This document shows positions 3,001-38,394 of a DNA stretch of 64,000 bases, piece after piece. This DNA is from an uncultured Eubacteriales bacterium (GTDB taxonomy: Bacteria > Bacillota > Clostridia > Peptostreptococcales > Anaerovoracaceae): positions 49,816-113,815 of the forward strand of contig CACWSO010000008.1 of the NCBI GenBank assembly GCA_902763505.1. The letters are read 5' to 3'. A program made the position numbers and the translations under genes. Every line of letters begins with the position of its first letter. The stretch's first letter is position 1. The notes beneath the pieces were generated by a model. That model was not told the DNA's origin. It saw only the letters and a program-made list of their open reading frames with translations, and did not search any database.

Positions 3001-3629
3001 ATGAATTGGTATCCGGCACCGTTGACTTAAAATTTAGCTTTGATGGCTCTGCGTTAAGCGGAACAGGCGCTGTTGTTTTTGAGAAACTATTTACCGGCGG
3101 AAGTCTTGTCGGTGAACATTCTGATATCAACGATACGAAACAGACAGTCTATCTTCCGGGAATAGAGACGACGGCCAACACAAACGGGACAGATAAAGTA
3201 TCTGACAAAGTGGAGTATAGGAATCTGCTGGCAGGCGAAAAATACATCATGCGGGGACAGCTTATGGATAAGTCTACGGGAAAAGAACTCATTATCGATG
3301 GAAGAGATTTCACGGCACAGATGGAGTTCGTTCCTGAAAAGAGCAATGGTTCCATCATCATGGATTTCCCTGTAAATGTAAAGGATCTGCAAGGGAAGAC
3401 CGCAGTCGTGTTTGAAACATGCTCTCTTGTGACAGACACTGAGTTTGGACCGACGGAAACGCAAGTGATCAGTCATAAGGATATCAACAACAAAGCGCAG
3501 ACAGTATCTTTTGATGTTCCGCAGACGGGCCAGAAAGGTCCTTGGATGCTGCTGTTTCCGATTGGCCTGATGACCGCGGCAGCAATCAGCTTCCTCCTGA
3601 GAAATCTGAGAAAGGCGGGTAGAGCATGA
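3..3629 (+). CDS. Giant Cna-B/VaFE-repeat surface adhesin or pilin, 5' partial
   Basis: The reading frame is open from base 3 with no ribosome binding site before the first ATG at 78, so the gene begins left of the window. At least 1208 residues are visible. The protein is a chain of beta-sandwich modules of the Cna-B/SpaA type, with phrases such as GEYVVSETG and YTIKEITAPAGY. Three C-terminal VaFE (Thr-Gln ester-bond) repeats follow; their signatures AVAMEQL, AVVFEKL and AVVFETC are visible. The end carries a sorting signal: VPQTG, a hydrophobic helix (WMLLFPIGLMTAAAISFLL), then RNLRKAGRA. Such proteins are covalently anchored to the wall by a sortase, and a sortase gene lies two genes downstream. 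An acidic, Lys/Glu-rich stretch in the middle looks like a linker. Ligand unknown. The stop overlaps the next start (ATGA). Confidence 0.85.
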   Translation, partial: VSVPNRFECYICNPTNGAQDFIAYKMNPPAYITLKKTSANAFSTAAGSGYSFEGIEYSVYSSSGGLAGKLTCNASGSTNTLTLDTGTYTVKETKTNKWYKLNPQTYSKTLTTGQTWTVPASDSPETGTIKIKKTVKGKYTGDLAFAFRLTNTANSSIVYNIVTDKVTGEAAVDVIEGTYRCEEVLSEGEEIIDLTGAQTGTVKIGETYTFERENMMPASGTLLINKSTDDGGSPAGFKFKVTGQLYNQGIITAEKLIDAASPTVTDYDETVYQLGEWKAAEKDIDALNKAAEDRKSGSMTVTLTNALTYKGNKGISIQDLVADPTGKIEKDTIITDSGKTYKALEDVSYEIIYEETAEPEKTEEAKETDNKKIDVEKTGDNIRELFAGESFEELDVSDIDLKTEVKVNLQPVQYVYNSEEPRQSGYETDTDKQIDNKKSETEEKDKYKLKRDNFDWFGAATAYQEIKNGELTGNNETTVETGDNGTTAELSEGITYGSFTVTEVMTETQKAKYKQPQTQTKEIKQQNGSAAFVFSFENKARWAGAGIIKTSDDGNVSGIAFKLEGKNHSGEAIEREAVTDADGRINFGKLYAGEYVVSETGFDSKKYENNYKLEGYKVPAQRLVITGDETSDVEIKFHNVPLKSLYLTKVDKESQLFLKNAVFALYEDKKELAMFRLILNDFGQTEIEMIRCDAAFSSELGDTAKATDRKDGEQNDYNFAVIRGLKEGNHYTIKEITAPAGYAASVDQAFVFEDGMKLIMENAAPEIGTSAVDKTTKKQMSDAEGMVTIVDTVSYNNLCPGHKYLLSGVLALKPGENRTVEQIEQDAETIEIVKDAKGNEVTAQKEFVPKSENGTVDIEFRFDASLLDGKQAVAMEQLVDPALTGINGVITVVASHEDMDDQAQTIYFPKVNTEASADDTGKSITEADNYVTITDRVDYSNVIAGKIYEITGTLMDKETGKPVLSGGNKVTSTVVFRAEKEGPVFAGEGEILVEETRDVHELVSGTVDLKFSFDGSALSGTGAVVFEKLFTGGSLVGEHSDINDTKQTVYLPGIETTANTNGTDKVSDKVEYRNLLAGEKYIMRGQLMDKSTGKELIIDGRDFTAQMEFVPEKSNGSIIMDFPVNVKDLQGKTAVVFETCSLVTDTEFGPTETQVISHKDINNKAQTVSFDVPQTGQKGPWMLLFPIGLMTAAAISFLLRNLRKAGRA

Positions 3630-5182
3630 TGAACAGAATAATAGTTTTGCTTTTGCTGTCGCTGCTGATTGCATTTCCGACCTGCCTGGTTCCGGTGGAT
3701 GCGGCAACTGTTTGTACCGTAAACTATTACTATACTTCGACCGACAATCCGGAAGGGGTGCCGGACCCGACCTCCGGTATGTTCAGCGGAGACAAATGGA
3801 AGATCACGCCTGCCGAAGTCTCACAGATGGTATACACCAAAACTGTTGGCGCAAAAACCGAAACATATACGTTTAAGGGATGGTACACGAATATCAATTG
3901 TCTAGGTAAAAAGTATACGCCCGGAGCAGAAACAACAGAACTGAAACCAAGCGTAGTGAACGGTACATATACGCTGAACCTATATGGCAAGTGGAAGTGC
4001 AGTGAAACAGGAGGCGAAGAGGGGAAACAAGAAGGGGAGACAATCGAAGAAGAAAACGCTGATTCTGTGGCGGGCATTTCTTCTATTTCCGCATATACGT
4101 TTCCTGAAGTTGGGAGTACCAGACCATTGGAAGCAAAATTCTCCTCCGGATCTGTCCTTAGCTATTCATCTAGTAACCCGGCAGTCGTTTCCGTTGATGA
4201 AAACGGCCTGATGAAAGCAAATGGAGCGGGGTCAGCAGAGATTACAATAACCTGCGGCGGGGATGCAGGCGCTGATCCAATCTCAAAAACATTGGCGGTC
4301 AGTGTTCCGTCATTCAGCAGCAGAGAGACGGCGCTTGCACCATGGAAGCATATTTTGATCGATACATTTTTTCATATCAACGACAGGAGGTACAGTTTTT
4401 CCAGACCAGGGAAGTACTGGAAGGACAGCAATGGAAACTGGAGCGGAAAGACCGGAGGAAATGGGAATACCCAGAGCTGCATCACCCTGCCTACAGTTTC
4501 GCTTAAAAGAACAGGGATCATCTCAACGGACAGCGGCAATATCTGGCTGAGTTCCAACATGTCTTCGCGACCAAACGGTACAGTTAAGAGTCTGCAGAAG
4601 AATTCAAAGAAACTGAAAATCACATTTCCGCACAAAAGCCTGAAAAGCCTTGTGAAAAGCGGAGGCGTAAGATACGGAGACATCGTCTGCCGCTCTGGTC
4701 ACACCTTTGTATTTATGGGAACAGATTCGAAAGGGACCCCATTGATTTTTAACGGTGGAACACTGCGAAACATCGGGAATGGTACAAAGGTGATATGGGG
4801 CCACAACGACAGATTGACTTCAAAAGTCAAAAAACAGATACGAGATTCGAATGCGCAGGGTGATAAATGGAGAAAGGGGATTCTATCTGATTCGAGTTTC
4901 AATGGAATCAATACAAGCGGCAAAAACCTGAACAATGCGATTCATATTGTGTGCAGTATCAATACGTTTACAGTTAAGACGAGTTGTGTGAATGGAACGA
5001 TAAGCCTGGGAAACAACTACATGGCCGGACAGGATGTTACTGTAAGCTATGCCCCTTCAGCCGGAAGAGCACTTGACTACGTATTGGTAGATGGCAATAA
5101 AGTAGATCCATCACAGTACGGGAGCAGCTATACTTTCAAGGGGATTGAAGCCAACCATTCGGTCGACGTCGTATATCGGTAA
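3626..5182 (+). CDS. Secreted multidomain protein with InlB-like repeat, Ig-like domain and papain-like (CHAP/NlpC-type) region
   Basis: 518 residues. An N-terminal signal peptide (hydrophobic stretch ending near VDAAT, residue 28) directs export. Residues about 30-125 resemble an InlB B-repeat (YTFKGWYTN then LYGKWKC). Residues about 150-230 resemble a bacterial Ig-like (Big2) domain, with YSSSNPAVVSVDENGLMKANGAG. Residues about 235-440 look like a papain-fold amidase or peptidase: Cys285 in QSCITLP and His359 in GDIVCRSGHTFVFMG fit a Cys/His pair. A further small beta domain closes the protein, with no wall anchor. The start overlaps the adhesin stop, and 17 bases separate it from the sortase gene, so the three form one operon. 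Activity on peptidoglycan or on the adhesin is inference; no family name can be fixed by eye. Confidence 0.7.
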   Translation: MMNRIIVLLLLSLLIAFPTCLVPVDAATVCTVNYYYTSTDNPEGVPDPTSGMFSGDKWKITPAEVSQMVYTKTVGAKTETYTFKGWYTNINCLGKKYTPGAETTELKPSVVNGTYTLNLYGKWKCSETGGEEGKQEGETIEEENADSVAGISSISAYTFPEVGSTRPLEAKFSSGSVLSYSSSNPAVVSVDENGLMKANGAGSAEITITCGGDAGADPISKTLAVSVPSFSSRETALAPWKHILIDTFFHINDRRYSFSRPGKYWKDSNGNWSGKTGGNGNTQSCITLPTVSLKRTGIISTDSGNIWLSSNMSSRPNGTVKSLQKNSKKLKITFPHKSLKSLVKSGGVRYGDIVCRSGHTFVFMGTDSKGTPLIFNGGTLRNIGNGTKVIWGHNDRLTSKVKKQIRDSNAQGDKWRKGILSDSSFNGINTSGKNLNNAIHIVCSINTFTVKTSCVNGTISLGNNYMAGQDVTVSYAPSAGRALDYVLVDGNKVDPSQYGSSYTFKGIEANHSVDVVYR

Positions 5183-5199
5183 GGCGGTCGGATTGCAAG

Positions 5200-5958
5200 A
5201 TGAAAAGACGAAAGAAACGAATAGCCGGACTGCTTACAGCAGTGGTTTTGATTCTCATGGCCGATTTGCTGGTGTTCTACTTTGCAGGGATTCCCAAGCT
5301 AGATCATGCAGTCATGCAAAAGGCTTGGAGAGGGCTTGATCTCCGAAACAAGTATCTGGAAAACACAGATATGGTCGGCTGGCTTCAGGTAGAAGGGACA
5401 GAAATCAATTATCCTGTCATGCGCGGAGAACGTTATCTGCACAGAAATTTCAAAAAAGAAAGAGATGTATCCGGCAGTCTGTTTGTAGAGAACGATTGGA
5501 GCAATGAAGACATATGCACATTGATCTATGGTCATAACATGTGGATGTATGGGACAATGCTGAACCCACTGCATCGATTTACTGAACAGGACTTCTTCCA
5601 AAATAACAGAAGCATTCAATACTATGCCTTGCTTGACAGTGGACACAGAGCGGAAAAACGCACGTACGAAATCATATGCTGTATCAGAACCAGCGTTGAC
5701 GAGTGGAATTATGCCAGTTGCCAGTATATCTGTTCAAGTAAAGATCTGAACACATTTTTGGATGAATGCAGGAGCAGAGCGCTTCTGAAAACAGATACTG
5801 TCTTTGAAGCAGGTGAAGCGATTGTTTTGTCCACATGTTCATATCACGTAAGAGGCGGTAAGGGAAGGCTGCTTCTTGTCGGCAGCCTGACAAGCAGAAC
5901 TGACCAGAATAGGATTGACGTGCAACAGAGAACGGATAAAAGTGCGGCAAAAAACTGA
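5200..5958 (+). CDS. srtB: Class B sortase
   Basis: 252 residues. A basic N-terminus and one membrane helix (about 8-30) hold the enzyme outside the membrane. The catalytic triad of sortases is visible: His112 in IYGHNM, Cys213 in VLSTCSY and Arg223 in GRLLLVG. The stretch between His and Cys and the NDWSNEDICTLIYGHNM region are typical of class B enzymes. Sortases cleave a C-terminal sorting motif and join the protein to an amino group of the wall or of another pilin subunit. The likely substrate is the first gene of this operon, which ends in VPQTG. The gene starts 17 bases after the preceding stop; no terminator hairpin is obvious after it. Confidence 0.92.
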   Translation: MKRRKKRIAGLLTAVVLILMADLLVFYFAGIPKLDHAVMQKAWRGLDLRNKYLENTDMVGWLQVEGTEINYPVMRGERYLHRNFKKERDVSGSLFVENDWSNEDICTLIYGHNMWMYGTMLNPLHRFTEQDFFQNNRSIQYYALLDSGHRAEKRTYEIICCIRTSVDEWNYASCQYICSSKDLNTFLDECRSRALLKTDTVFEAGEAIVLSTCSYHVRGGKGRLLLVGSLTSRTDQNRIDVQQRTDKSAAKN

Positions 5959-8076: not shown

Positions 8077-8835
8077 ATGAGAAAGACAATTTTGACAAAG
8101 GATGTTTTGATATCCAGAGAAATTGAATATATGATTGAGACCGGGATGTTCGGAGAAGGTGATAAGCTTCCGTCTGAACGTCTGCTCGCAGACCAGTTCA
8201 ATGTACAGCGTGGAACAATCAGGAATGCATTGCAACTTCTGATAGACAGAGGCCTGATTGAAGCGAGAGACCGTTCCGGTTATTACGTTGCGGCTTCCAG
8301 AATACGTTTCGATAAGGATCAATATAACTCTAGACGGAATATCATAAAACAGAGCGGCAAGGAAGCATTTGTTAAGCTCCTGAGCTTTGAGAAGACGATC
8401 ATCCCGGGAAAAGTGCTGGAAAAAGCGGAAGAAATGTCGGCGGAAGACAATTCGGTCCGCAGCGAGCTTTCGCCGGACGTGCATGTGTACCGAATCATGC
8501 GGCTGCGTTTTATCGACGGGGAGCCAATCGCCATCGAGCGCACAAATATCCAGTGTGATCTTACGCCGGATTTAAAAGAAGAAGATGTTCATGATCAGTC
8601 AATCTATAAAATGCTCAATGATAAATACGGCATCAAAATGAAGAGAGCCTACACAAGAATCACAGCGGTGTATGCGAATGGGCTGGAGTCGGAACTGTTG
8701 AACATCGATATGAAAAAACCTGTTATGAGGTATGAGGGAATCGTTTTTGACAGCGAAGGCAGGCTGATCGAATACTATGACGACATATTGTTAAAGGAGA
8801 AGGTGGAGTTTTTCAGCAATGAAGTCGATGTCTGA
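8077..8835 (+). CDS. GntR-family (HutC type, UTRA) transcriptional regulator 1
   Basis: 252 residues from ATG 8077. A start further upstream would lie inside the terminator hairpin and is rejected. The N-terminus is a GntR winged helix (LPSERLLADQFNVQRGTIRNA), followed by a UTRA ligand-binding domain (about 90-245) ending with IVFDSEGRLIEYYDD. HutC-type regulators usually repress catabolic operons and let go when a sugar phosphate or similar ligand binds. The neighbouring fructosamine genes are the likely targets (inference). There is no Shine-Dalgarno sequence; an extended -10 box TGGTAAAAT ends eight bases before the ATG, which suggests a leaderless mRNA. The end overlaps the next gene. Confidence 0.88.
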   Translation: MRKTILTKDVLISREIEYMIETGMFGEGDKLPSERLLADQFNVQRGTIRNALQLLIDRGLIEARDRSGYYVAASRIRFDKDQYNSRRNIIKQSGKEAFVKLLSFEKTIIPGKVLEKAEEMSAEDNSVRSELSPDVHVYRIMRLRFIDGEPIAIERTNIQCDLTPDLKEEDVHDQSIYKMLNDKYGIKMKRAYTRITAVYANGLESELLNIDMKKPVMRYEGIVFDSEGRLIEYYDDILLKEKVEFFSNEVDV

Positions 8836-9568
8836 TGAGACAAAAGAAAAGAAAAAGGCAACGGCGTCTGAAGTGGCTTGTCAGATCAGGTCGCAGATAG
8901 AAGAAGGTATTTTTCGACCGGGGGAGAAGCTGCCTTCTGAGCGTTATCTGGCAAACAAGTATGGTACTACGAGAGCTACCGTACAGTATGCGTTCCAAAA
9001 GCTTGCAAAAGAAGACATTGTCGTTCGTTCACATGGAGCGGGAACCTTCGTGAAAGAAGCGGATCTGGGAAGACTGGAATTCAGGCGGCTGACGGATCAT
9101 ATCGATGGAGGTATTACATCCTTAGTGGAAAGAGTTGGAGGTGTTGCTTCCAGTATCGTTCTGACCAAAGGTATTATCACCGGCAGCTTCTTCACGCATA
9201 AGCTCCAACTTGAAGAAGATGCTCCGGTTTACGCGCTTCACAGGGTTCGGTGCGGCAATGGGATTCCGGTTGCGCTGGAGTACACCTATGTTCCGGCAGA
9301 GCTTTTTGAGGATATCGATACTGTAGACTTTGCAGCGAATTCACTGTACCAGTACATGGACAGTAAAAACCATATGCCAATCCGATTCAACGAGATCATA
9401 CAGATTGTTGAAATTATAGAAAGAGAGCGCACTTATATGGCGCTCCCTGAAAATGTACCTGTTTATTCCTGCAAATTTATCGGATTTGACAAAGATAACC
9501 GTGTTGTCGAATATACGGAGATGTTTGCCAGATGTGATATGTTCGAACTGAATCTGGATTCCAGATAA
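8819..9568 (+). CDS. GntR-family (HutC type, UTRA) transcriptional regulator 2
   Basis: 249 residues. It has the same architecture as the preceding regulator: a GntR winged helix (LPSERYLANKYGTTRATVQYA, about 40-60) and a UTRA domain with YALHRVRCGNGIPVALEYTYVP. The start overlaps the upstream gene by 17 bases, with GGTGGAG about ten bases before ATG 8819; ATG 8828 is an alternative. The two regulators are clearly diverged, not a recent duplication. The tandem suggests that two related ligands, perhaps two Amadori compounds or their phosphates, are sensed separately (inference). It runs head-on into yjbQ with only four bases between, and no terminator is visible. Confidence 0.88.
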   Translation: MKSMSDETKEKKKATASEVACQIRSQIEEGIFRPGEKLPSERYLANKYGTTRATVQYAFQKLAKEDIVVRSHGAGTFVKEADLGRLEFRRLTDHIDGGITSLVERVGGVASSIVLTKGIITGSFFTHKLQLEEDAPVYALHRVRCGNGIPVALEYTYVPAELFEDIDTVDFAANSLYQYMDSKNHMPIRFNEIIQIVEIIERERTYMALPENVPVYSCKFIGFDKDNRVVEYTEMFARCDMFELNLDSR

Positions 9569-9572
9569 TCCA

Positions 9573-10001
9573 TCATTCACCCATCAATGTAATGTATACC
9601 GTTCTGTCCTGTGGTCCATCAAATTCACACAGGTAGATTTCCTGCGCTTTGCCGAGACGGATTGTTCCATCTGCAATCGGGAAGACGCAGTGGTTTCCTG
9701 TCAAATGAGATTTCAGATGGCCAGTCGGGTTGTTTCCCATGGCTCCGTAAGAGTGCAGGAAACGCGCGTGAGCGTAGTTCCCATCTTCCGGAACCAGATT
9801 GCTGAGCAAGTCATGGATATCACTTTCCAGACATTCCAATCCCTCATTTACAGCAATGCCGGTAGTTGTATGGGCTGTGATTACATACACTACGCCGTTC
9901 TTGATCTTGCTGTTTGAAACGATATCACGGACCTTTTCGGTGATTCTGATGAACGTATTGTATTCAGTTGTCATAATCTGTATTTCATTATGCTCAATCA
10001 C
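9573..10001 (-). CDS. yjbQ: YjbQ/UPF0047 family protein
   Basis: 142 residues, the full family length. Family hallmarks are visible: TAHTTTGIAVNEG, the HARFLHSYGAMGNNPTGHLKSHL region, and LGKAQEIYLCEFDGP with a C-terminal RTVYITLMGE. His and Glu residues of the conserved pocket are present. E. coli YjbQ has a promiscuous thiamine-phosphate synthase activity, but the real function of the family is uncertain. The start overlaps the end of the amidohydrolase gene, so it is the third gene of a minus-strand operon that begins with a fructosamine kinase gene. A role in fructosamine metabolism is only suggested by position. Confidence 0.88.
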   Translation of the reverse strand: MIEHNEIQIMTTEYNTFIRITEKVRDIVSNSKIKNGVVYVITAHTTTGIAVNEGLECLESDIHDLLSNLVPEDGNYAHARFLHSYGAMGNNPTGHLKSHLTGNHCVFPIADGTIRLGKAQEIYLCEFDGPQDRTVYITLMGE

Positions 10002-10866
10002 GTGTGTATTCCTCCAGTCCTAAAAATACCAGCGCGTTGCCTCCCATAATCAGTTCTTTTGTGGAAGGACGAAGCGGCAGCGCCTCCAATGCCTTTTTCA
10101 TTCTTATCGCTTCAAGCCTCGGGTCGTTGGTGCCGAACATGATCTGATGGCGAAGTCCCCGGTCAACCCAGGTGATAGGGATGTCCTTTGTCAGTACCTG
10201 ATCATAGAATTCACGGGCAGAATCGAAATACAGGCAAGCTGTATCAGCATAGACATTGCCGTATTTCAGCATGAGCATGCAAGCCTCTTTGACCCACGGC
10301 CAGGCCATGTGCGCCAGGCATATACGCAGGTTCGGATGGTTGTATGCCAGTTCTTCAAACTCCATCGGATGAGAATACTTTGAAAGGGTGTATGGCTCTA
10401 CTGACATTCCTGCATGAAACATGACAGGTTTATTGTACTTCTCACAGATCTGCCAGATTGGTTCAAGAGCTTCATCAGAAGGATAAAAGCGCTGCTTGCC
10501 CGGGTGCAGTTTCAATCCGGAAAGCTTTAAGGTGCCGAATGCATGCTCAAGTACATCACATGCGTCATCTCTAAACGGATCCACGCTGGCGAAGCCGATA
10601 AACCTATCAGGGAAAGCGTCCTGCAGCGCGCGGACTTGCTCATTGGTGCCAAGGCTTACTCCATGTGTTGTGGTCAGATCCAGCGGAAGCAACACACATT
10701 TATCTACGCCGTTATAATTCATTTGAATGAAGTGTTCTTCGGCTGGAAAAGATCCGGACTTGTAAAGCCCGGTCATGTCTATGACAAAGGCTTCCTGTTC
10801 TTCCGTGGTGCACACCTCTTCAAAGAGCCATGGATGTGCATGAATATCAATAACGGGTGTTTTCAT
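9994..10866 (-). CDS. Amidohydrolase-2 family metal-dependent hydrolase
   Basis: 290 residues from the ATG at 10866, which has AGGAGG about ten bases upstream. A longer reading frame extends antisense-like into frlD and is not used. The N-terminal VIDIHAHPW is the HxH metal site on strand 1 of a TIM barrel. GLKLHPG, VMFHAGM, ICLAHMAWPW and a late MFGTNDPR, with its metal-type Asp, complete the pattern of the amidohydrolase-2 (ACMSD/decarboxylase-like) group. The substrate is unknown. It sits 16 bases after the FrlD-like kinase gene and overlaps yjbQ, so it is probably co-transcribed and may act on a side product or an unusual Amadori compound (inference). Confidence 0.82.
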   Translation of the reverse strand: MKTPVIDIHAHPWLFEEVCTTEEQEAFVIDMTGLYKSGSFPAEEHFIQMNYNGVDKCVLLPLDLTTTHGVSLGTNEQVRALQDAFPDRFIGFASVDPFRDDACDVLEHAFGTLKLSGLKLHPGKQRFYPSDEALEPIWQICEKYNKPVMFHAGMSVEPYTLSKYSHPMEFEELAYNHPNLRICLAHMAWPWVKEACMLMLKYGNVYADTACLYFDSAREFYDQVLTKDIPITWVDRGLRHQIMFGTNDPRLEAIRMKKALEALPLRPSTKELIMGGNALVFLGLEEYTRD

Positions 10867-10882
10867 ATCATCAAATACCTCC

Positions 10883-11701
10883 TCATTCTTTTTCAGGCCA
10901 AGGGCCGAAGACACTGACTGTCTCTGCAGCAACACGAGCGCCTTGGGCCATACAGTCAGCAACGCCCATGCCGCTGAGGATTCCGTGCATGAATCCTGCA
11001 ATATAAGAATCTCCGGCACCAATCGTATTGACAAGATCTGACGGCATGATTCCGCAGTGAATGAACACGGTACCATCCCAGGCAAGGCTTCCTTCACTGC
11101 CGAAGGTAGCCACGGCGAGTCTTGGTCCGCGCGCCACAGTGCGCTGCAGAAAATCACGGACTTCTTTTTTGTCTCTTTCAAAAGAGAAAAAAGCGAAGTC
11201 TACGTGTTCAATGGTCTGTTCGAAAATATCGCTGCCGTCTGAAAGAAATTCATCTGCATAATCAAAGCTGGTCAAGGTACCGCTGCTGTGAATCTCAGGA
11301 AGATGCATGTGAGCGTTGCCCCACATGGCAGAATGAACCAGATCATGGGATTTTGCAAAAGCAATATCTTCTTCACTAAAAGAGATAGTGTCCATAACAC
11401 CACCGTCCCATTTGTCATAGATGCGCTCTTTGTCAATCAGCTTCATATAAGAACGAGCTGTATTGCCTTCCGCAATCTTCAAATGTGAGGTATCCAGTTT
11501 TTCGCGTTGGAACATCTCCCGCATGGCATTACCGTAACTGTCATTTCCTGTTGTTGTTATGATGGAAACAGGTATTCCAAGCCTTTGCATATGGACACCA
11601 AAATCAACAACATTGCCGGTGCAGTACCATAAATCGAGATCCGGATAGATGTCAACACAGTTGTCGCCCAGAGCAGCAACTGTTTTTTTCATCCTGTTCA
11701 T
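10883..11701 (-). CDS. frlD: PfkB-family fructoselysine 6-kinase homologue (FrlD type), copy 1
   Basis: 272 residues. It closely follows E. coli FrlD from the start (ALGDNCVDIYP) through YDKWDGGVMDTISFSEEDIAFAK-like and LVHSAMWGNAH phrases. It ends with the PfkB catalytic loop NTIGAGDSYIAGF, in which Asp is the base. The known reaction is phosphorylation of fructoselysine at O6. The usual GGN substrate loop reads TGNVVDFG here, so the sugar-amine preference may differ from copy 2. AAAGGAG lies nine bases before the ATG. It is the first gene of a minus-strand operon with the amidohydrolase and yjbQ, divergent from the deglycase-transporter operon. Confidence 0.85.
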   Translation of the reverse strand: MNRMKKTVAALGDNCVDIYPDLDLWYCTGNVVDFGVHMQRLGIPVSIITTTGNDSYGNAMREMFQREKLDTSHLKIAEGNTARSYMKLIDKERIYDKWDGGVMDTISFSEEDIAFAKSHDLVHSAMWGNAHMHLPEIHSSGTLTSFDYADEFLSDGSDIFEQTIEHVDFAFFSFERDKKEVRDFLQRTVARGPRLAVATFGSEGSLAWDGTVFIHCGIMPSDLVNTIGAGDSYIAGFMHGILSGMGVADCMAQGARVAAETVSVFGPWPEKE

Positions 11702-11742
11702 GCAGCAATCTCCTTTGAAAACAACCTCTTTCTAACAGTTAT

Positions 11743-11770
11743 CTTATATCAGTAGAAAAAAATATGTCAA
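11743..11770 (-). promoter_or_regulatory. Promoter of the minus-strand frlD-amidohydrolase-yjbQ operon
   Basis: On the minus strand TTGACA (11770-11765) is followed 16 bases later by TATAAG (11748-11743). The transcript would start about 35 bases before the frlD ATG. Confidence 0.6.
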
Positions 11771-11786
11771 ATAAATAACAGAAAAC

Positions 11787-11882
11787 TGGTATTATTCGGA
11801 GAATACCCCAAATATCAGAATATTAGATTGAAAAAACCATAGCAAACCATGAAGTGGTATATAAATTTCTCGCAAGTGGTAT
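11787..11882. promoter_or_regulatory. Cluster of TGGTAT half-sites between divergent promoters (putative GntR operators)
   Basis: TGGTAT occurs at 11787, 11855 and 11877. The first belongs to a palindrome, GGTATT (11788-11793) and AATACC (11802-11807). The other two lie in direct repeats AAGTGGTAT (11852-11860 and 11874-11882), 22 bases or two helical turns apart. The element ACCA (11846-11849) and TGGT (11855-11858) adds an inverted pair. HutC-type regulators of the NagR/DasR group bind TGGT-containing palindromes, so these are plausible operators for the two local regulators. Confidence 0.5.
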
Positions 11883-11904
11883 GCATTTTTTTGTCTTCAT
11901 TTTA

Positions 11905-11933
11905 TTGAAATGCCCTTCCACTGTTGATATTCT
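11905..11933 (+). promoter_or_regulatory. Promoter of the frlB-pot-frlD operon
   Basis: TTGAAA (11905-11910), a 17-base spacer and TATTCT (11928-11933), about 37 bases before the SIS-domain gene start. The putative TGGTAT operators lie directly upstream. Confidence 0.6.
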
Positions 11934-11969
11934 GTAAAAAAATTAAAGAAGAAAAGAGAGGTGATTCAC

Positions 11970-12980
11970 ATGCGAAAATTTGATACTGAGGCATACAGAG
12001 AAAATGCGAAAAAGATATATGGGCAGTTAGGCGATATAGAGAAAATGGCCGATGCGATCCATGAAAGAGGATACAGCAACATCATACTTCTTGGTATAGG
12101 CGGAACCTGGGCTGAATGGCATCCAGTAGCGCACGTACTCCGTCACTATACAGATGTTCCTGTTTATCTGGAGAACGCTGCAGAGTTTTGTATCAAAGAA
12201 GACAAGAGATATCTGACAAAGGATTCCATCGTCCTGACAGCTTCTGATTCAGGAAACACAAAGGAAATCATTGAAGCAGTCGATATGTGCAAAGCCATGG
12301 GCGTTCAGATCGCAGGGTTCACAAAATCAAAGGAAAACGAGCTTGGTAAACGGCTTGACTACATTGCAACAATTACAACGGGCGACTGTGAAGACACATA
12401 TATTATGTTCTTCCTGCTGACGCTCAGAATGCTGTACGACAGAGGAGACTTCCCAAGCTATCCGAAGTTTGCGGAGCAGATGGGATGCATTCATGAGAAC
12501 CTGCTCAGAATCCGTGAAGAATTCGAACCGCGTGCACAGGAAATCGCTAAGAAATATGCGCGGGAACCATACAACATTTTCGTTGGTTCCGGAGCGCTCT
12601 GGGGAGAAACCTATTTGTTCTCCATGTGCATACTCGAAGAAATGCAGTGGGTGCGCACGAAATCTGTCACGTCAGCTGATTTCTTCCATGGAACGTTAGA
12701 ACTTGTTGAAGACGGTGTGCCGGTATTCCTGTTCAAGGGTGAAGACGAGTACAGAGCACTGGACGAAAGAGTAGAGAGATTCTGCAGCAAGTTCACAGAC
12801 AAACTGACAGTGATCGACACAAAGGAATTCAAGTTAGAGGGAATCGATGACGAGTTCAGAGTCATCTGCTCACCGATGATTCTGACAGCAATCGTAACAG
12901 AAAGACTGGCCTGCTGGTATGAGTACAACACAGGACACAGTCTTGAATTCCGTAGATACTACAGACAGTTCGAGTATTAA
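11970..12980 (+). CDS. frlB: SIS-domain fructosamine 6-phosphate deglycase homologue (FrlB type)
   Basis: 336 residues from ATG 11970; the GTG at 11961 lies within the ribosome binding site AGAGAGGTG. Two SIS domains are visible. The first contains IILLGIGGTWAEWHPVAHVL and VLTASDSGNTKEIIEAV. The second contains IFVGSGALWGETYLF and TSADFFHGTLELVEDGVPVF. The C-terminus (EFRRYYRQFEY) matches the FrlB ending RRYY...EY. FrlB splits fructoselysine 6-phosphate into lysine and glucose 6-phosphate. Where E. coli FrlB reads SGEFRHGPLE, this protein has SADFFHGTLE, so the acidic residue is Asp and the substrate may differ. It is the first gene of an operon with a Pot-type transporter and a second FrlD-like kinase. 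Confidence 0.82.
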   Translation: MRKFDTEAYRENAKKIYGQLGDIEKMADAIHERGYSNIILLGIGGTWAEWHPVAHVLRHYTDVPVYLENAAEFCIKEDKRYLTKDSIVLTASDSGNTKEIIEAVDMCKAMGVQIAGFTKSKENELGKRLDYIATITTGDCEDTYIMFFLLTLRMLYDRGDFPSYPKFAEQMGCIHENLLRIREEFEPRAQEIAKKYAREPYNIFVGSGALWGETYLFSMCILEEMQWVRTKSVTSADFFHGTLELVEDGVPVFLFKGEDEYRALDERVERFCSKFTDKLTVIDTKEFKLEGIDDEFRVICSPMILTAIVTERLACWYEYNTGHSLEFRRYYRQFEY

Positions 12981-13000
12981 TAAAATCGGAGGAGAACGCT

Positions 13001-14083
13001 ATGGCAGAGTCAATTGTATCCCTGAGACATGTGAACAAGTATTTTGGCGAGAATCATGTACTAAAGGATATCAATCTTGAAATTGAAGAGGGGGAGTTTC
13101 TTACGCTGCTGGGTCCGTCAGGATGCGGCAAGACAACGACACTCAGGCTTATTGCGGGATTTGAGGATGCGACCGACGGAATCATTGAAGTGCAGGGGGA
13201 CCGTGTTGAGGATAAGGAAGCATATGAAAGAGACGTCAACACTGTATTTCAGAGCTATGCTTTATTCCCGCATATGACAGTCTATGACAATATAGGATAC
13301 GGACTCAAGGTCAAAAAAGTTCCGAAGGAAGAGATCAAGGAACGAGTCAGAGAAATGCTGGAACTTGTCCAGCTCATGGGCTTTGAAGGCAGAAAGCCTG
13401 ATGCCATGTCAGGCGGACAGAAACAGCGTGTTGCGATTGCAAGAGCGTTGATCAACAATCCTAAAGTGCTGCTCCTTGATGAACCATTAGGCGCATTGGA
13501 TTTGAAACTGCGTAAGCAGATGCAGATCGAGCTGAAGAGACTGCAGCAGATGCTGAATATTACGTTCGTGTATGTTACCCACGATCAGGAGGAAGCCATG
13601 ACCATGAGTGACAGAATTGCAGTCATGAAGGATGGTATCATCGAGCAGTTGGCTTCCCCACGGGAAATCTACAATAAGCCTGCGACAAAGTTCGTTGCTG
13701 ATTTTATCGGCGAATCAAATATCTTCTCTGGAACAGTTATCGAAATCAACGGAGAGGAAGCAACGCTGGAAACAGAGTGCGGATGCTGCAAAATGCCGGC
13801 AGAAGGATTTGCGGTGGGCGACAAGGCGCACGTGTGCATCCGGCCTGAAACAATTGGTTTTTCAAAGGAACCAGTCGATGGATTCACACTGAAGGGACAA
13901 GTCAAAAACATGATCTTCGTCGGTGCAGTGTTCAGAACCTTAGTTACGATGGAGAACGGTTATGATGTCAAAATCAACCGCGTGAAATACGATGGGTCCT
14001 ATCAGGAAGGAGATACGTTGTATTTCTATTGGGATGTTGAAGACTCGACCGGAATCAGAGATCAGGAGGTAACAAATGGATAG
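13001..14083 (+). CDS. potA: Polyamine/fructosamine-type ABC transporter ATPase (PotA-like)
   Basis: 360 residues. ABC motifs in order: Walker A GPSGCGKT (38-45), Q-loop in VFQSYALFP, signature SGGQ (137-140), Walker B VLLLDE (156-161) and the switch histidine in YVTHD (His194). After residue 240 comes a TOBE domain (SNIFSGTVIEING and VCIRPETIGFS). The match is to PotA of the spermidine/putrescine importer group. Genes for two permeases and a binding protein follow at once, so the importer is complete. The gene sits 20 bases after the deglycase gene and carries its own GGAGG. In this context the cargo may be an Amadori compound and not a polyamine (inference). Confidence 0.92.
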   Translation: MAESIVSLRHVNKYFGENHVLKDINLEIEEGEFLTLLGPSGCGKTTTLRLIAGFEDATDGIIEVQGDRVEDKEAYERDVNTVFQSYALFPHMTVYDNIGYGLKVKKVPKEEIKERVREMLELVQLMGFEGRKPDAMSGGQKQRVAIARALINNPKVLLLDEPLGALDLKLRKQMQIELKRLQQMLNITFVYVTHDQEEAMTMSDRIAVMKDGIIEQLASPREIYNKPATKFVADFIGESNIFSGTVIEINGEEATLETECGCCKMPAEGFAVGDKAHVCIRPETIGFSKEPVDGFTLKGQVKNMIFVGAVFRTLVTMENGYDVKINRVKYDGSYQEGDTLYFYWDVEDSTGIRDQEVTNG

Positions 14084-14939
14084 AAGCGGGATCCGCGGAA
14101 AACTGCCAGCCATGGTCACCGCCGGACCGATATCCATCTGGCTGATCATATTCGTACTCCTGCCTTTGGTCTACGTGTTTGTGATCAGCTTCATGTCGAG
14201 AGGGACCTATGGCGGAATCGACTGGCATTTCACTTTTGAGAATTACACGATGCTTTTGCAGCCGCTGTATCTCAAAATCATATGGAAGTCTCTCAAACTG
14301 GCGTTCCTGACGACAGCGATGTGCCTGATCATGGGGTATCCGTTAGCATACTGGATTGCGCAAAAGCCTGCGAAATCCGCGGCGAAATGGCTTTTGCTCG
14401 TCATGATTCCGTACTGGACGAATTCCCTTGTCAGATTATACAGTGTCAATCTGCTCGGAATGCCGAATGGATTTGTAAATCTGTTCCTGATGAAACTGCA
14501 TATCATCAGTGAACCGATTCAGTTTTTATACACCGACGGAATGGTGTTGATGGGGCTGCTTACTGCAATGCTCCCATTCTCAGTACTGCCGCTGTATTCA
14601 TCTATTGAGAAGATGGACAAGTCACTGATCGAGGCATCGAAGGATCTGGGAGCAAATTCTGTAACCACCTTCCGCAAGGTGACGATCCCACAGACCATGG
14701 GAGGCATCGTTGGATGCATTTTACTAGTGTTCATCCCATCGATTGGAATGTATCAGGTTCCGGAAGTTCTGGGCGGCGGCAAAGTCATGCTCGTAGGTAC
14801 TCTGATCAAGAATCAGTTCCTGATGACAAAGAACTGGCCGTTCGGTGCATCGATGGCGATTCTGCTGATGTTCAGCACGATCGCTATGCTGCTGATCTAC
14901 ACGAGGGTCGGTAAGCTGGAAGAGCTGGAGGTGGTCTGA
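14076..14939 (+). CDS. potB: ABC transporter permease (PotB-like)
   Basis: 287 residues with six predicted membrane helices. The inner-membrane permease signature (EAA loop) is visible as EASKDLGANSVTTFRKVTIPQ near residue 190. The N-terminus overlaps the ATPase gene by eight bases, and the stop TGA overlaps the next ATG by one base, both typical of coupled translation. With the next gene it should form the heterodimeric channel of a PotABCD-type importer. Nothing in the protein alone tells polyamine from fructosamine transport. Confidence 0.9.
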   Translation: MDRSGIRGKLPAMVTAGPISIWLIIFVLLPLVYVFVISFMSRGTYGGIDWHFTFENYTMLLQPLYLKIIWKSLKLAFLTTAMCLIMGYPLAYWIAQKPAKSAAKWLLLVMIPYWTNSLVRLYSVNLLGMPNGFVNLFLMKLHIISEPIQFLYTDGMVLMGLLTAMLPFSVLPLYSSIEKMDKSLIEASKDLGANSVTTFRKVTIPQTMGGIVGCILLVFIPSIGMYQVPEVLGGGKVMLVGTLIKNQFLMTKNWPFGASMAILLMFSTIAMLLIYTRVGKLEELEVV

Positions 14940-15784
14940 TGGAAGAGAACAGAAGACTCAGCAAACGGCTCAGGCGCAAAAGACTCGGGAAAAGAGTCAG
15001 CAATGTCTATGCGGCTATCATATATGCGTTCATATACGTACCGATTGCAGTTATGGTCATCTTCTCATTCAATGACCAGCTGAACAACTACTATTGGGTC
15101 GGATTTACCACCAAGTGGTACGTAAAATTATTCAGTGGATCGGAACTTTGGGGATACCTCTGGAATTCCCTTGTCGTGGCGGTTCTGGCGACGATTATCT
15201 CCGTCATCATCGGCACGTTGGGAGCTATGGGACTGATGCGGTTCGAATTCATGCTAAAGAAAGTGATCAACAGCTCACTGTATATCCCGGTTATCATTCC
15301 GGAAATCGTTATGGGTATTTCCCTGCTGATGCTGTATCAGATCTGCAACTTCCCGCTTGGTCTTCCGGCGGTAACATTAGCTCATATCACATTCTGTGCG
15401 CCGTTCGTCGTCATCATTATGAGAGGTCGAATGTCAGGTATGGATTTATCTGTTGAGGAAGCTTCAATGGATCTGGGCGCTAACCGTCTGGAGACATTCT
15501 TCCGCATTACGGTGCCGATGCTTGTGCCGGGTCTGTTATCCAGTGCTTTCATGGCATTTACACTGTCGATCGATGACGTTATCATCACCAACTTTGTGGC
15601 GGGACCATATTCGACAACATTGCCGGTTAAGATCCTGTCCATGGTTAAGATGGGTCTGCATCCTGATGTCAACGCGCTGACGACAATCATGATTGCGGTG
15701 CTGATCTTGGGTATCCTGGTGAACAATCTCGTGCAGGCCGCATTGAGAAAGCGTTCGATGGGAACTGTAAAAACATATTTCTAA
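14939..15784 (+). CDS. potC: ABC transporter permease (PotC-like)
   Basis: 281 residues with about six membrane helices. The EAA loop EASMDLGANRLETFFRITVP lies near residue 175. The very basic N-terminus (SKRLRRKRLGKR) fits the positive-inside rule. It is the second permease of the importer, translationally coupled to the first by a one-base overlap. A gap of 77 bases before the binding-protein gene contains no clear promoter; a weak GC-rich repeat near 15795-15812 could tune mRNA stability. Confidence 0.9.
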   Translation: MEENRRLSKRLRRKRLGKRVSNVYAAIIYAFIYVPIAVMVIFSFNDQLNNYYWVGFTTKWYVKLFSGSELWGYLWNSLVVAVLATIISVIIGTLGAMGLMRFEFMLKKVINSSLYIPVIIPEIVMGISLLMLYQICNFPLGLPAVTLAHITFCAPFVVIIMRGRMSGMDLSVEEASMDLGANRLETFFRITVPMLVPGLLSSAFMAFTLSIDDVIITNFVAGPYSTTLPVKILSMVKMGLHPDVNALTTIMIAVLILGILVNNLVQAALRKRSMGTVKTYF

Positions 15785-15861
15785 GGTTCAACAACCTCGC
15801 CAGAGGTGAGATAGAAACGTTATTACCATTTAGTTATTGTTGATTGAATAAGGAGGAACAA

Positions 15862-16977
15862 ATGAAGAAGCTCAGAAAATCAATCGCTGTTCTGCTGATC
15901 GTAATGATGGCAGCACTGACCGGCGGCGTGCTGACCGGATGCGGCGGAAGCAGCGGTGAAGCAGGTGAGGTCAACATTTATATGTGGTCAGAATATATGG
16001 CACCGTCACTTGCAGAACAGTTTGAAGAAGAAACTGGAATCAAGGTTAACTTCTCTTACATGAGCACAACTGAAGAAGCAGTTGCAAAGATCACCAGCGG
16101 AGGCGGCAGCGAATATGACCTGATCATGCCTTCGGATGCTGACATGACATCCCTGATCGAAGGTGGATATCTGGAAGAGATCAATCTGGACAATCTGCCG
16201 AACTTCGATAATCTGGATGATGCGTACAAGTACAGAGAATTCGACCCGGAAAACAAATACGCAATTCCTTATCTGATGAACTATGTATATGTCATCTATA
16301 ATAAGGATAAGTGCCCAATTGAAATCACATCCTACAATGACCTTCTTAAGCCGGAAATGAAGGGACAGATTTCATCTGTAACTGGTGTTAGAAACCTGTT
16401 CGCAATGGCACTGGCAGCACAGGGTCTTGATCCTAACAGCAAGGAAGAAGCTGATATCGAAAAGGCTTATGAATGGTGCCTTGAGTACTCCAAGAACGTT
16501 GTTGCCTTTGATTCCGACAGCCCTGAGACTCTGCTGATCAACGGCGGTGCAACAGCTGCATACGTATTTGACGGTCAGGTCACAAAGGCAATCAACGAGA
16601 CAAAGGCAGGTTCCGGAGATGAAATCGTTATCGCAGAATTTGACGAGGATCCTATTCAGCTGGGCGTCGATGAATTCGTCATTCCTGCAGGAGCAAAGAA
16701 CAAGGAAAATGCAGAAGCATTCCTGAACTTCCTCCTCGATGCTGATGTAATGGCTTCCAATCTCCAGTACATGTATGATGAAGAGGGTAATGTTGTATCT
16801 TGCCCGAACGCAGCAGCACTTGATCTTATGAGCGATGAGTACAAGAGCAGCCCTGCAATCAATCTTCCTGAGAAGATGAAGAACAATTACTATCTCCAGC
16901 TGGATGTTGGCGATGCAGCAAAGATCTATGACGAATACTGGACAAAATTCCAGTCTGAGGCAGGAGAAGTAGAGTAA
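15862..16977 (+). CDS. potD: Substrate-binding lipoprotein of the Pot-type importer (PotD-like)
   Basis: 371 residues from ATG 15862, with AGGAGG seven bases upstream; the TTG at 15844 precedes that site and is rejected. A lipoprotein signal peptide ends in the lipobox LTGC, after which the mature protein starts with Cys. The opening EVNIYMWSEYMAPSLAEQFEEETG and the YDLIMPSDADM and VFDGQVTKAI segments are typical of PotD-like extracellular binding proteins (family 1 solute binding). It should capture the substrate outside the membrane. In the PotD fold acidic and aromatic side chains hold amines, which suits a glycated amine as well as a polyamine; the specificity cannot be read by eye. Confidence 0.9.
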   Translation: MKKLRKSIAVLLIVMMAALTGGVLTGCGGSSGEAGEVNIYMWSEYMAPSLAEQFEEETGIKVNFSYMSTTEEAVAKITSGGGSEYDLIMPSDADMTSLIEGGYLEEINLDNLPNFDNLDDAYKYREFDPENKYAIPYLMNYVYVIYNKDKCPIEITSYNDLLKPEMKGQISSVTGVRNLFAMALAAQGLDPNSKEEADIEKAYEWCLEYSKNVVAFDSDSPETLLINGGATAAYVFDGQVTKAINETKAGSGDEIVIAEFDEDPIQLGVDEFVIPAGAKNKENAEAFLNFLLDADVMASNLQYMYDEEGNVVSCPNAAALDLMSDEYKSSPAINLPEKMKNNYYLQLDVGDAAKIYDEYWTKFQSEAGEVE

Positions 16978-16996
16978 GATAAACCATACTTTCACG

Positions 16997-17030
16997 ATAA
17001 GGGCCGCCGATCACTTGGCGGCCTTTATCT
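16997..17030 (+). terminator. Probable terminator or attenuator between potD and the second frlD
   Basis: GGCCGCC and GGCGGCC form a GC-rich hairpin around GATCACTT, followed by TTTATCTCTT. The T run is short, so some transcripts may read through into the kinase gene. Confidence 0.65.
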
Positions 17031-17079
17031 CTTGATGAACCAGTAAAAGAATGAAGCAGGCTTGAGAAAGAGGAATGCT

Positions 17080-17931
17080 ATGCGCGTAATAGGAATCGGA
17101 GATAATGTTGTTGACCGTTATACAGACAGGCGGATCATGTTTCCCGGGGGAAATGCTGTCAACTTCGCGGTATATGCGAAACAGTGCGGAGCGGATGCCG
17201 CCTATCTGGGGCTACTGGCAGATGAACCGGAGGGCCGTCTTATCAGGGGTTCGCTGGAAACGCTTGGTGTGGATGTCAGTATGTCGCCTTTGCAGGAGGG
17301 CCTCACGACGGAACGATGTGATGTGACCGTGAAAAGCGGTGACAGAGTGTTTGTTGGCGTCGAGTATGGAGAAGGATCCTGGAAGCCTCTTCGCTTGAAG
17401 GATGAACATATCACATATTTGAAGCAATTTGATGTAATCCACTGCGGATGCTACGGGGAGATGCCTGAAGAGATGGCGAAACTCGATGTCTGTGGGGCAG
17501 TCAAAACTTATGATTTCTCGGAAGAGGAGGAATACAGGACAGATGCGTATCTGGAAACGGTGTGCCCTCATATCGATATTGCGTTGTTTTCCGGATCGTC
17601 AATGGATGAAGCGGAACGTCTTCGCGTCCGTGAGAAGGCAGTCAATCTGGGTACTGGATTAGTCCTGATTACAGACGGTTCCAAAGGACAGATCATCTGG
17701 GATGGAACAAGAGAGTATACAGGCTGCGTAAAGATGGTTGATGCAGTGGATACCATGGGCGCCGGTGATTCGTTCTTTACTGCTTTTGTAATAGAACTGG
17801 TAAGAAGGGGATATCGGAAAGGAACAGAGGTGACTGAGGAAGACATCAATGCAGCAGCCCGGAAGGGAGCTGATTTTTCCGCGCAGGTATGTATGAGCGA
17901 AGGGGCATTTGGCTTCGGAACAACCTATTGA
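17080..17931 (+). CDS. frlD: PfkB-family fructoselysine 6-kinase homologue (FrlD type), copy 2
   Basis: 283 residues from ATG 17080, preceded by AAAGAGG; the TTG at 17062 lies before that site. The FrlD-like opening GIGDNVVDRY is followed by the intact substrate loop PGGNAVNFAVYAKQ. The protein ends with the catalytic loop DTMGAGDSFFTAF and a C-terminal helix. Compared with copy 1 it keeps the standard GGN motif, which makes it the better candidate for the fructoselysine kinase proper. It lies 102 bases after the binding-protein gene, beyond a hairpin, so its level may be lower than that of the transporter. Two kinases with one deglycase suggest two substrates feeding a common step (inference). 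Confidence 0.85.
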   Translation: MRVIGIGDNVVDRYTDRRIMFPGGNAVNFAVYAKQCGADAAYLGLLADEPEGRLIRGSLETLGVDVSMSPLQEGLTTERCDVTVKSGDRVFVGVEYGEGSWKPLRLKDEHITYLKQFDVIHCGCYGEMPEEMAKLDVCGAVKTYDFSEEEEYRTDAYLETVCPHIDIALFSGSSMDEAERLRVREKAVNLGTGLVLITDGSKGQIIWDGTREYTGCVKMVDAVDTMGAGDSFFTAFVIELVRRGYRKGTEVTEEDINAAARKGADFSAQVCMSEGAFGFGTTY

Positions 17932-37616: not shown

Positions 37617-38348
37617 ATGGAAGTCAATCTTCTCTTCCTGGCTTTGATTCCGGGAATCGTAATTATCATCTTTATCTTCAGAAAAGATAAGGTAGAACAT
37701 GAACCGTGGGGTCTCATCTTCAAGCTGTTGGTCCTTGGTGCTTTTTCCTGTGTTCCGGCAATGTTCATGGAGATGTTCATGGGAGGTTTCATGCCAGCGG
37801 GATATACTCCGGGAACGGTTGGCTACGCAGTGTTTAATGCCTTTGCGGTAGCAGCGCTCTGCGAAGAGTTGTGCAAGTTCATCCTGCTCCGGATCGGTTC
37901 CTGGAGAAACCCGAACTTCAACTACAGATTTGACGGAATCGTCTACGGTGTTGCCGTTGCGGTTGGATTTGCACTGCTTGAGAATGTGCTGTATGTCATG
38001 GAGGGAGGTCTGTACGTGGCGCTGATGAGAGGTGTCATGGCAGTTCCGCTCCACGCGTTCTGCGGCGTCTATATGGGCGTGCACTACGGCGCAGCCAAGC
38101 GGTATTCTGTTGAGGGAAACAAGGGTCAGGAGACGCTGCATACGATACTGGCAATGATCAGCCCGATGCTCATCCATGGAATCTACGATTCACTGGCCTT
38201 TATGGGTGAATACGGAACGACGTTCATTCTGCTTGCATTCGTACTGCTCATGTACATCGTGGCAGTGAAGTGCGTCAACAAATACTCAAACGAGGACTGG
38301 CATGCAGGCTTCTATCTGGAACAGATGGCGCGCATTGACAACAAATAA
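37617..38348 (+). CDS. PrsW-family intramembrane glutamic protease
   Basis: 243 residues with about seven membrane helices. The family motifs are present: EE in AALCEELCKF with the following Lys, FALLENVLYV, and two helix-embedded histidines in AVPLHAFCGVYMG and LIHGIYDSLAF. PrsW of Bacillus starts the cleavage of an anti-sigma factor; the local substrate is not known. Two bases separate it from the AIR-synthase-like gene, so it probably ends the pcrA-ligA operon. An independent promoter for the SRP RNA follows. Confidence 0.88.
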   Translation: MEVNLLFLALIPGIVIIIFIFRKDKVEHEPWGLIFKLLVLGAFSCVPAMFMEMFMGGFMPAGYTPGTVGYAVFNAFAVAALCEELCKFILLRIGSWRNPNFNYRFDGIVYGVAVAVGFALLENVLYVMEGGLYVALMRGVMAVPLHAFCGVYMGVHYGAAKRYSVEGNKGQETLHTILAMISPMLIHGIYDSLAFMGEYGTTFILLAFVLLMYIVAVKCVNKYSNEDWHAGFYLEQMARIDNK

Positions 38349-38351
38349 TAA

Positions 38352-38380: not shown

Positions 38381-38394
38381 CAAGTGTATTCAAA

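Follow-up and report, generated by a model that had tools for sequence, protein, structure and literature searches.

The window analysed here, the whole 64,000-nucleotide stretch from a gut Clostridium, contains what is probably an inducible locus for fructosamine catabolism, served by a PotD-derived importer that would most likely act on N-epsilon-fructoselysine. In the pathway we propose, a PotD-derived lipoprotein would capture the unphosphorylated Amadori compound, PotABC-type components would bring it in, and the FrlD-like kinase Kin2, probably aided by a second kinase, Kin1, would phosphorylate the sugar at O6. Two GntR/UTRA regulators would be in control, perhaps via TGGTAT sites upstream of the deglycase, and the cell could ferment the lysine through a pathway of its own.

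Gene content of the locus

According to open reading frame and profile searches, the locus runs from a pair of GntR/UTRA regulators through a divergently transcribed trio (kinase, amidohydrolase, YjbQ) to deglycase–PotABCD–kinase (Table 1). All named genes have intact frames and the PotA, PotB, PotC and PotD genes are contiguous, which bears out the initial annotation of two kinases, a deglycase and a full PotABCD-type transporter; the two UTRA-GntR regulators (8077-9568), the YjbQ protein and the Amidohydro_2 protein are additional to its gene list. Probable starts were chosen by ribosome-binding site for the deglycase (ATG 11970), PotD (ATG 15862, in a frame open from TTG 15844), Kin2 (ATG 17080, open from TTG 17062) and the amidohydrolase (ATG 10866, preceded by AGGAGG). 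The last of these, which carries the HxH motif DIHAHPW, was searched as the frame from 10917, 17 codons longer than the likely gene.

Table 1. Features of the locus, in window coordinates
Feature	Position	Strand	Basis
GntR1, GntR/UTRA regulator	8077..8835	+	PF00392+PF07702; conserved beside deglycase in lineage A
GntR2, second GntR/UTRA regulator	8819..9568	+	PF00392+PF07702; conserved as a pair with GntR1
YjbQ/UPF0047 protein, Kin1 trio	9573..10001	-	TIGR00149 114 bits, cut-off 67.75
Amidohydro_2 metal-dependent hydrolase, Kin1 trio	9994..10866	-	PF04909 2e-31
Kin1, FrlD-type PfkB kinase	10883..11701	-	NF007321 320.1 bits, cut-off 247
Divergent control region	11702..11969		candidate operators TGGTAT at 11787, 11855, 11877
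SIS deglycase, GfrF type (putative fructoselysine-6-phosphate deglycase)	11970..12980	+	PDB 8glr/2a3n 1e-92
PotA-type ATPase	13001..14083	+	TIGR01187 378.7 bits, cut-off 355.6
PotB-type permease	14076..14939	+	best NCBIfam match PotB, 284.2 bits; equivalog cut-off 348 missed
PotC-type permease	14939..15784	+	PF00528; second of permease pair, named from position
PotD-like lipoprotein, proposed fructosamine-binding	15862..16977	+	SBP_bac_8; PotD model 172.5, cut-off 582
Kin2, FrlD-like, core kinase of the lineage	17080..17931	+	NF007321 174 bits, below cut-off 247; kept in lineage A

The deglycase had been described as FrlB-like, and of this the deglycase stands while the FrlB name does not. On the NCBIfam FrlB equivalog model it reaches 88.7 bits against a cut-off of 430, it matches the PDB entries 2a3n/8glr, and these entries match the SIS gene that comes last in a gfr-type operon of Klebsiella, and in a tree of SIS proteins it groups with gfr-type loci, E. 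coli FrlB lying in a different part. By its sequence, then, it is a GfrF-type enzyme and not FrlB. The Glu of EMQW and the His of FFHG, which we take to be catalytic, are kept in the alignment to 2a3n/8glr, 3eua and 9otj/9ou6 (9otj being, we assume, FraB), so that a SIS deglycase with the conserved Glu and His is present. Beside it stand the two FrlD-like kinases that had been named, Kin1 above the family cut-off and Kin2 below it; the kinase tree places Kin1 in the same half as E. coli FrlD (support 87/88) and Kin2 in the other half, with the kinases from sugar-ABC loci.

A kinase lies within 9 kb of the deglycase in 14 of 16 loci with a PotD-type transporter, in all seven with a sugar ABC transporter and in all three with FrlA, but in none of 11 with a mannose-type PTS. 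This pattern is what would be expected if the Pot-type transporter imports unphosphorylated fructosamine. Loci of unclassified transport have a kinase in 8 of 12 cases; those without one are L020 (at a contig end, with an IIB-like gene alongside), L022 (with fragments of sugar-ABC and kinase genes), and L029 and L088, both at contig ends. Within 9 kb of the window's deglycase there is no PTS gene, and hence no adjoining mannose-type PTS of the Gfr kind.

All 10 upstream regions contain the hexamer TGGTAT (mean in shuffles 0.95), a motif picked post hoc from these same regions, and same-strand pairs 66-69 bp apart, a spacing likewise picked post hoc, occur in 7/10 regions and in none of 300 shuffles. 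The set comprises the window and nine loci, among them the PTS locus L036; L024, L034 and L035, with no upstream DNA, and L025, of the same species, were left out. A promoter scan gave 16 hits where chance predicts 15.8. As for the fate of lysine, the window genome has above-cut-off matches to Kdd, KamA, KamB, KamC, KamD and KamE, and one to Kce. Many genomes of the order have lysine 5,6-aminomutase (95/148), and lysine fermentation was not demonstrably enriched among the genomes that carry the locus (10/12, compared with 85/136 others).

Linkage and the altered binding pocket

PotABC(D) follows the deglycase directly in 12/12 loci whose deglycases are 66-100% identical to that of the window, two of the loci being from the window's own species (L024 and L025, with the same deglycase); L029 breaks off after PotC, L032 inside PotD. 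L025, an independent MAG from goat jejunum and seemingly of the same species, has the identical gene order, which makes misassembly unlikely; together with the 12 relatives it is the ground on which chance neighbours or an assembly artefact were rejected. The linkage of deglycase and Pot genes is not due to chance. It recurs in two arrangements. Lineage A has the order Kin2-GntR1-GntR2-SIS-PotABCD, which the window shows in rearranged form; lineage B has PotABCD-SIS-FrlD, joined by FrlC in L080, L081 and L136 but not in L082 (3/4), and its kinase is an E. coli-type FrlD in the kinase tree. The two lineages share one PotD clade and differ in their deglycase and kinase subclades.

Searching with PotD alone leads back to the same association. 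The best 4 of 105 places in the order sample, the window's own included (327-833 bits), are SIS-linked, and the remaining 101 score at most 188 bits, none coinciding with a SIS match; in the class sample the sole other match at 1e-65, in G685, is linked to SIS, FrlC and FrlD. All strong PotD relatives in the two genome samples, four outside the window's genome, thus adjoin a SIS deglycase and FrlD.

The assignment of the transporter to the spermidine/putrescine class holds at the level of family, given the one-operon subunit set and a PotA above its subfamily cut-off; PotD and PotB are the best models for their genes and stay under the equivalog cut-offs (172.5 of 582 and 284.2 of 348, scored for the window proteins alone). 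The binding protein has a lipobox-like stretch, LTGC, with an invariant Cys, and the linked binding proteins form one clade of the PotD tree (support 100/100). Comparison of the pocket with PotD and with relatives near deglycases, a check proposed at the outset, gave a uniform answer: at E. coli PotD Y85, D168, E171 and W255 the linked proteins have A, G, N and G in 14/14 cases, and the full set occurs in 0/26 unlinked PotDs. At positions 85, 171, 255 and 257, presumably all polyamine-pocket residues in E. coli PotD (Y85, E171, W255, D257), the 14 linked proteins have A, N, G and D, and the 26 unlinked ones Y, D, W/F (one S) and D. The acid at 171 is thus present in PotD, PotF and 26/26 unlinked PotDs, and replaced by Asn in 14/14 linked ones. 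PotF has Ser at position 85. Position 168 is weak evidence and was left out of the pocket definition, since there the unlinked PotDs (Ser in 26) and PotF (Ala) also lack the acid. W34, Y37, D257 and Q327, to which we also attribute pocket roles in E. coli PotD, are kept in 14/14 linked proteins. The count of 14 includes both the window protein and its 99% identical counterpart in L024, and excludes L025 (PotD identical to the window's), L032 (PotD cut) and L029 (contig ending after PotC); the 26 unlinked PotDs are those of the 101 places with loci, and are generic by absent linkage alone. From these sequences the importer appears to descend from a polyamine transporter whose binding pocket has changed. 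A likeness to an Agrobacterium opine-binding protein (PDB 6hly, 4.7e-07; 0.0051 with a profile) is weak and was not leaned on.

Competing readings of the substrate

Of the two possibilities initially raised, a PotD-type protein adapted to a glycated amine is supported by the linkage, the kinase/transporter pattern and the pocket changes, transport itself being inferred. The other has glycated polyamines such as fructosyl-putrescine taken up and broken down through the locus, the pocket still recognising one amine and tolerating a sugar on the second; this we consider improbable. PotD ancestry and the retention of W34, Y37, D257 and Q327 speak for it, and the uninformative position 168 together with the kept Q327 led us to raise its weight and lower that of the main reading; yet the GfrF-type deglycase, the sister operons with E. 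coli-type FrlD and mostly FrlC, and the loss of the acid at 171 in 14/14 leave it without specific support, and none of the eleven genes of the locus is polyamine-catabolic. Less probable still is an ordinary polyamine importer placed in the operon by happenstance. Its PotA passes the polyamine ATPase cut-off, part of the PotD pocket is kept, and polyamine uptake may still fall to this importer, since the only other PotD match in the window genome (96% complete) reaches 22 bits, unlike the strong match found in 21/24 other genomes of the family in the sample. Against this stand a linkage held in two lineages, a separate clade with an altered pocket, and the additional unlinked PotD of 2/3 lineage-B genomes in the order sample (G406, G475).

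A reading that otherwise overlaps the preferred one, and that we regard as possible though unlikely, has the importer take up alpha-glycated amino acids or small glycated peptides. The Bacillus pathway prefers alpha-glycated amino acids, according to the part of the source available (PMC12632257), Kin2 sides with the kinases of sugar-ABC loci rather than with E. coli FrlD, and two kinases could mean two substrates; the deglycase, however, is closest to GfrF, and in lineage B the same PotD clade accompanies FrlD/FrlC of E. coli type, both of which favour N-epsilon-fructoselysine. Glucoselysine as the main substrate was rejected, as the locus has no second SIS gene for GfrE, and the accessible portion of a review assigns the fructoselysine-6-phosphate enzyme role to GfrF. 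With fructoselysine as carbon source a gfrF mutant was impaired and a gfrE mutant was not, text and legend contradicting each other in the part of the paper available (PMC12675984). Beside a PotD-derived, fructosamine-specific importer with kinase and GfrF, the kinase–Amidohydro_2–YjbQ cassette might conceivably take apart another glycated and phosphorylated compound with no SIS deglycase involved, a reading we consider rather doubtful; if true, the cassette would be new deglycation chemistry.

Relation to known systems

Among the matches listed, titles and abstract openings name no Pot-type fructosamine importer, most subscription journals lying outside the coverage, and an Anaerovoracaceae genome paper, in the part available, gives a PTS for fructoselysine/glucoselysine and, separately, a spermidine/putrescine ABC system (PMC11362086). 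Such Pot-like genes are likely to be labelled polyamine importers because they score best on spermidine/putrescine models, and some genes so annotated may in fact serve glycated amino acids. If they are fructosamine importers, gut bacteria that remove Amadori products of processed or heated food have been overlooked, and A/N/G at PotD positions 85, 171 and 255 would be a simple sequence test for such importers.

The fructoselysine pathway as such is known, and judged by sequence it is the transporter class that is the variant. The compatible layout is that of Intestinimonas AF211, in which seven genes, AF_00949-00955, are reported for fructoselysine and psicoselysine, followed by lysine fermentation (Bui et al. 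2015, PMC4697335, as far as the source was available). Like the window, the cluster has a kinase (00949), a deglycase (00951) and a four-gene ABC transporter (00952-00955); its order would match that of a FrlC-containing lineage B locus rather than lineage A, to which the window belongs, and the ABC class is unstated in the text compared. The gfrABCDEF operon (Salmonella, with Klebsiella and Cetobacterium records) shares the GfrF deglycase subfamily at 43-45% identity, but there a mannose-type PTS phosphorylates on import, a kinase was not found and a second deglycase, GfrE, is present. E. coli frlABCDR has an FrlD-type kinase, a SIS deglycase and a GntR-type regulator as here, and differs in its permease FrlA, in an FrlB placed elsewhere in the SIS tree and in having FrlC, which the window locus lacks. 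Bacillus frlBONMD-frlP likewise couples ABC import to a kinase and a deglycase, through the type I importer FrlONM powered by FrlP/MsmX, which the initial annotation called sugar-type. With E. coli PotABCD and PotFGHI the locus shares the subunit set and the binding-protein family, whereas the changes at Y85, E171 and W255 set its binding protein apart from both PotD and PotF.

Gene content and the deglycase

The eleven genes of the locus all have open frames and lie between an EF-G-like gene on one side and a putative radA, named from its sequence, on the other. On the FrlD model, with its cut-off of 247, the PfkB kinase Kin1 scores above (320 bits) and its counterpart Kin2 below (174 bits); the rest of the genome holds one more match, weak at 60 bits. 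The gene order of the locus recurs in an independent goat-jejunum MAG (L025), apparently of the same species.

Features of the window
Feature	Position	Strand	Remark
Big_2-domain protein, then sortase-like protein	3626-5958		sortase-like protein below Pfam cut-off
Eleven-gene locus	8077-17931		
GntR1, GntR2 (UTRA-type regulators)	within 8077-17931	+	
YjbQ, Amidohydro_2, Kin1	within 8077-17931	-	
SIS deglycase, PotA, PotB, PotC, PotD, Kin2, in that order	within 8077-17931	+	divergent from Kin1
Trio PfkB kinase-Amidohydro_2-YjbQ	9573-11701	-	also in loci L060, L126
TGGTAT sites	11787, 11855, 11877		candidate operators
Large bacterial SRP RNA	38341-38551		above Rfam gathering score; ordinary
Proton-antiporter/complex I-like and 49-kDa/NiFe-hydrogenase-like subunits	46513-51379		possibly an energy-converting hydrogenase cluster
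L10 leader	55091-55231		above Rfam gathering score; ordinary

The initial annotation called the deglycase FrlB-like, a name that has to be given up: the protein reaches 88.7 bits with the FrlB equivalog, whose cut-off is 430, and it matches PDB 2a3n/8glr at E 1e-92. The SIS tree, for which the program warned of long branches, places it apart from E. coli FrlB in a 25-row set (support 100/99) with gfr-type PTS loci. In a Klebsiella record, ordered PTS IIA-IIB-IIC-IID-SIS-SIS, 2a3n is hit at 6e-195 by the final SIS gene, which is taken as GfrF because of the gene order; the first has a single match, at 1e-40, to a different protein, 2aml. In the accessible part of a review (PMC12735817), GfrF is named as the enzyme for fructoselysine 6-phosphate and GfrE as that for glucoselysine. 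The sections seen of PMC12675984 assign the two substrates both ways at different places; with fructoselysine as carbon source, the gfrF mutant described there shows residual growth only and the gfrE mutant grows like the wild type. A mannose PTS and a FrlC-like TIM-barrel protein accompany the GfrF-type deglycase in five loci from Longicatena and Coriobacteria (L036, L037, L038, L039 and L129).

The distribution of the deglycase is rare and patchy: at 1e-30 it is matched in 8 of 398 phylum-sample and 12 of 148 order-sample genomes, own genome counted in both, and the 24 further genomes of the window's family in the order sample have no match. Close relatives of the Amidohydro_2 protein (E <1e-80) occur in 3 of the 398 phylum-sample genomes, own counted; a PfkB kinase and YjbQ adjoin it in all three, the kinase being FrlD-like in two, and the trio is absent at two weaker matches (1e-26). 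In L126 a LacI regulator adjoins the trio, as does a PFL-like glycyl radical enzyme. The trio may widen the substrate range or form a separate pathway.

Transporter and kinase across deglycase loci

A pattern scan of one genome per species (84,980 species), which detects close relatives only, yielded 20 deglycase loci. Twelve of them have 66-100% deglycase identity, and in every one the deglycase is followed by PotA-PotB-PotC(-PotD); none of the 8 with 35-57% shows this arrangement. Nine of the twelve have DNA upstream of the deglycase, and Kin2-GntR1-GntR2 lies there in seven (L026, L027, L028, L030, L031, L032, L033); in L025 the genes are ordered as in the window, Kin2 lying downstream, and L029 lacks both regulator and kinase. 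One named isolate with such a locus is Sinanaerobacter chloroacetimidivorans (Anaerovoracaceae). A second arrangement, PotABCD-SIS-FrlD, is found in four genomes (L080, L081, L082, L136), three of them with an E. coli-type FrlC. Its deglycases form a separate subclade of the SIS tree, and its kinases stand apart from Kin2, yet in Kin1's half of the kinase tree. Across the two lineages the binding proteins group in a single clade, so that the same type of binding protein has been retained alongside two sets of fructosamine enzymes.

The pattern of kinases and transporters among 49 deglycase loci (E. coli counted in; the window, L024 and L025 being one species) is, in functional terms, the strongest reason to think that the Pot-type genes would import the kinase's substrate. 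A PTS hands over its substrate already phosphorylated, which makes a kinase unnecessary, and none of the 11 mannose-PTS loci has an FrlD-like kinase within 9 kb of the deglycase. Such a kinase is present in 7/7 sugar-ABC, 3/3 FrlA-type, 8/12 unclassified and 14/16 PotD-type loci; the two exceptions among the last, L034 and L035, start at the deglycase, and the kinase is upstream in this lineage. PotD-type loci pattern like those of other non-phosphorylating importers.

The binding protein and its ligand

A search with PotD alone finds 105 places in 97 of the 148 order genomes: the window scores 833 bits, the next three, all SIS-linked, 327-341, and all others at most 188, with none of these remaining 101 places coinciding with a SIS deglycase hit. 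Among 245 class genomes, only the window and G685, a genome carrying SIS-FrlC-FrlD, pass 1e-65. The linked PotDs form a clade (support 100/100) whose branch measures 1.4 changes per column.

The initial annotation suggested a binding protein adapted to a glycated amine or, as an alternative, a pathway that degrades glycated polyamines. In the linked proteins the pocket differs from those of E. coli PotD and PotF and of the unlinked PotDs. We take W34, Y37, Y85, D168, E171, W255, D257 and Q327 of E. coli PotD to be the positions with polyamine-binding roles. All 14 linked PotDs keep W34, Y37, D257 and Q327 and carry Y85A, D168G, E171N and W255G. In the order's 26 unlinked PotDs, putative polyamine binders, the residues are Y85, S168 and D171, and at 255 W in 20, F in 5 and S in 1; at 85, 168, 171 and 255, E. 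coli PotF carries S, A, E and F. Position 168 does not discriminate, since the unlinked PotDs and PotF also lack an acid there; the informative substitutions are Asn for the acid at 171, Gly for the aromatic residue at 255 and Ala for Tyr85. This uniform loss of the acid and the aromatic wall argues for a ligand other than a polyamine, and the retained D257 could hold the substrate's one amine. Since no other strong PotD match turns up in the window genome, which is 96% complete, the importer may have a dual use.

Regulation, lysine and known systems

Upstream of the deglycase, TGGTAT occurs in 10/10 regions (mean 0.95 in 300 shuffles), with same-strand pairs 66-69 bp apart in 7/10 and in none of the shuffles, figures that overstate the case because motif and spacing were picked after inspecting the same regions and some sequences are related. 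These sites may serve the two GntR proteins as operators.

The cell can probably ferment the lysine that is released, as its genome encodes Kdd, KamA, KamB, KamC, KamD and KamE in one cluster (L140, contig C25), all above cut-off, and Kce, also above, on another contig; a second Kce-like protein falls below. The pathway's mutase is found in 95/148 order genomes, which makes lysine fermentation consistent rather than telling. In the portions available, fermentation of fructoselysine-derived lysine is described for Intestinimonas (PMC4697335) and lysine fermentation is predicted for Vallitalea (PMC6163223).

Fructosamine kinase-deglycase pathways are well known, and the importers on record in the sources as far as seen are FrlA, the Gfr PTS and Bacillus FrlONM. 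Our literature search, with subscription journals mostly outside its coverage, found no Pot-type fructosamine importer described among the matches listed. The pathway is known, and the transporter class is what varies here. In Intestinimonas, fructoselysine uptake was modelled via an ABC transporter whose four genes neighbour those for the kinase and the deglycase; the gene spacing fits the PotABCD-SIS-FrlD lineage with FrlC, and the ABC class is unnamed in the available description (PMC4697335). It may be that work on a relative has already dealt with the substrate of a Pot-type importer, the transporter class going unremarked.
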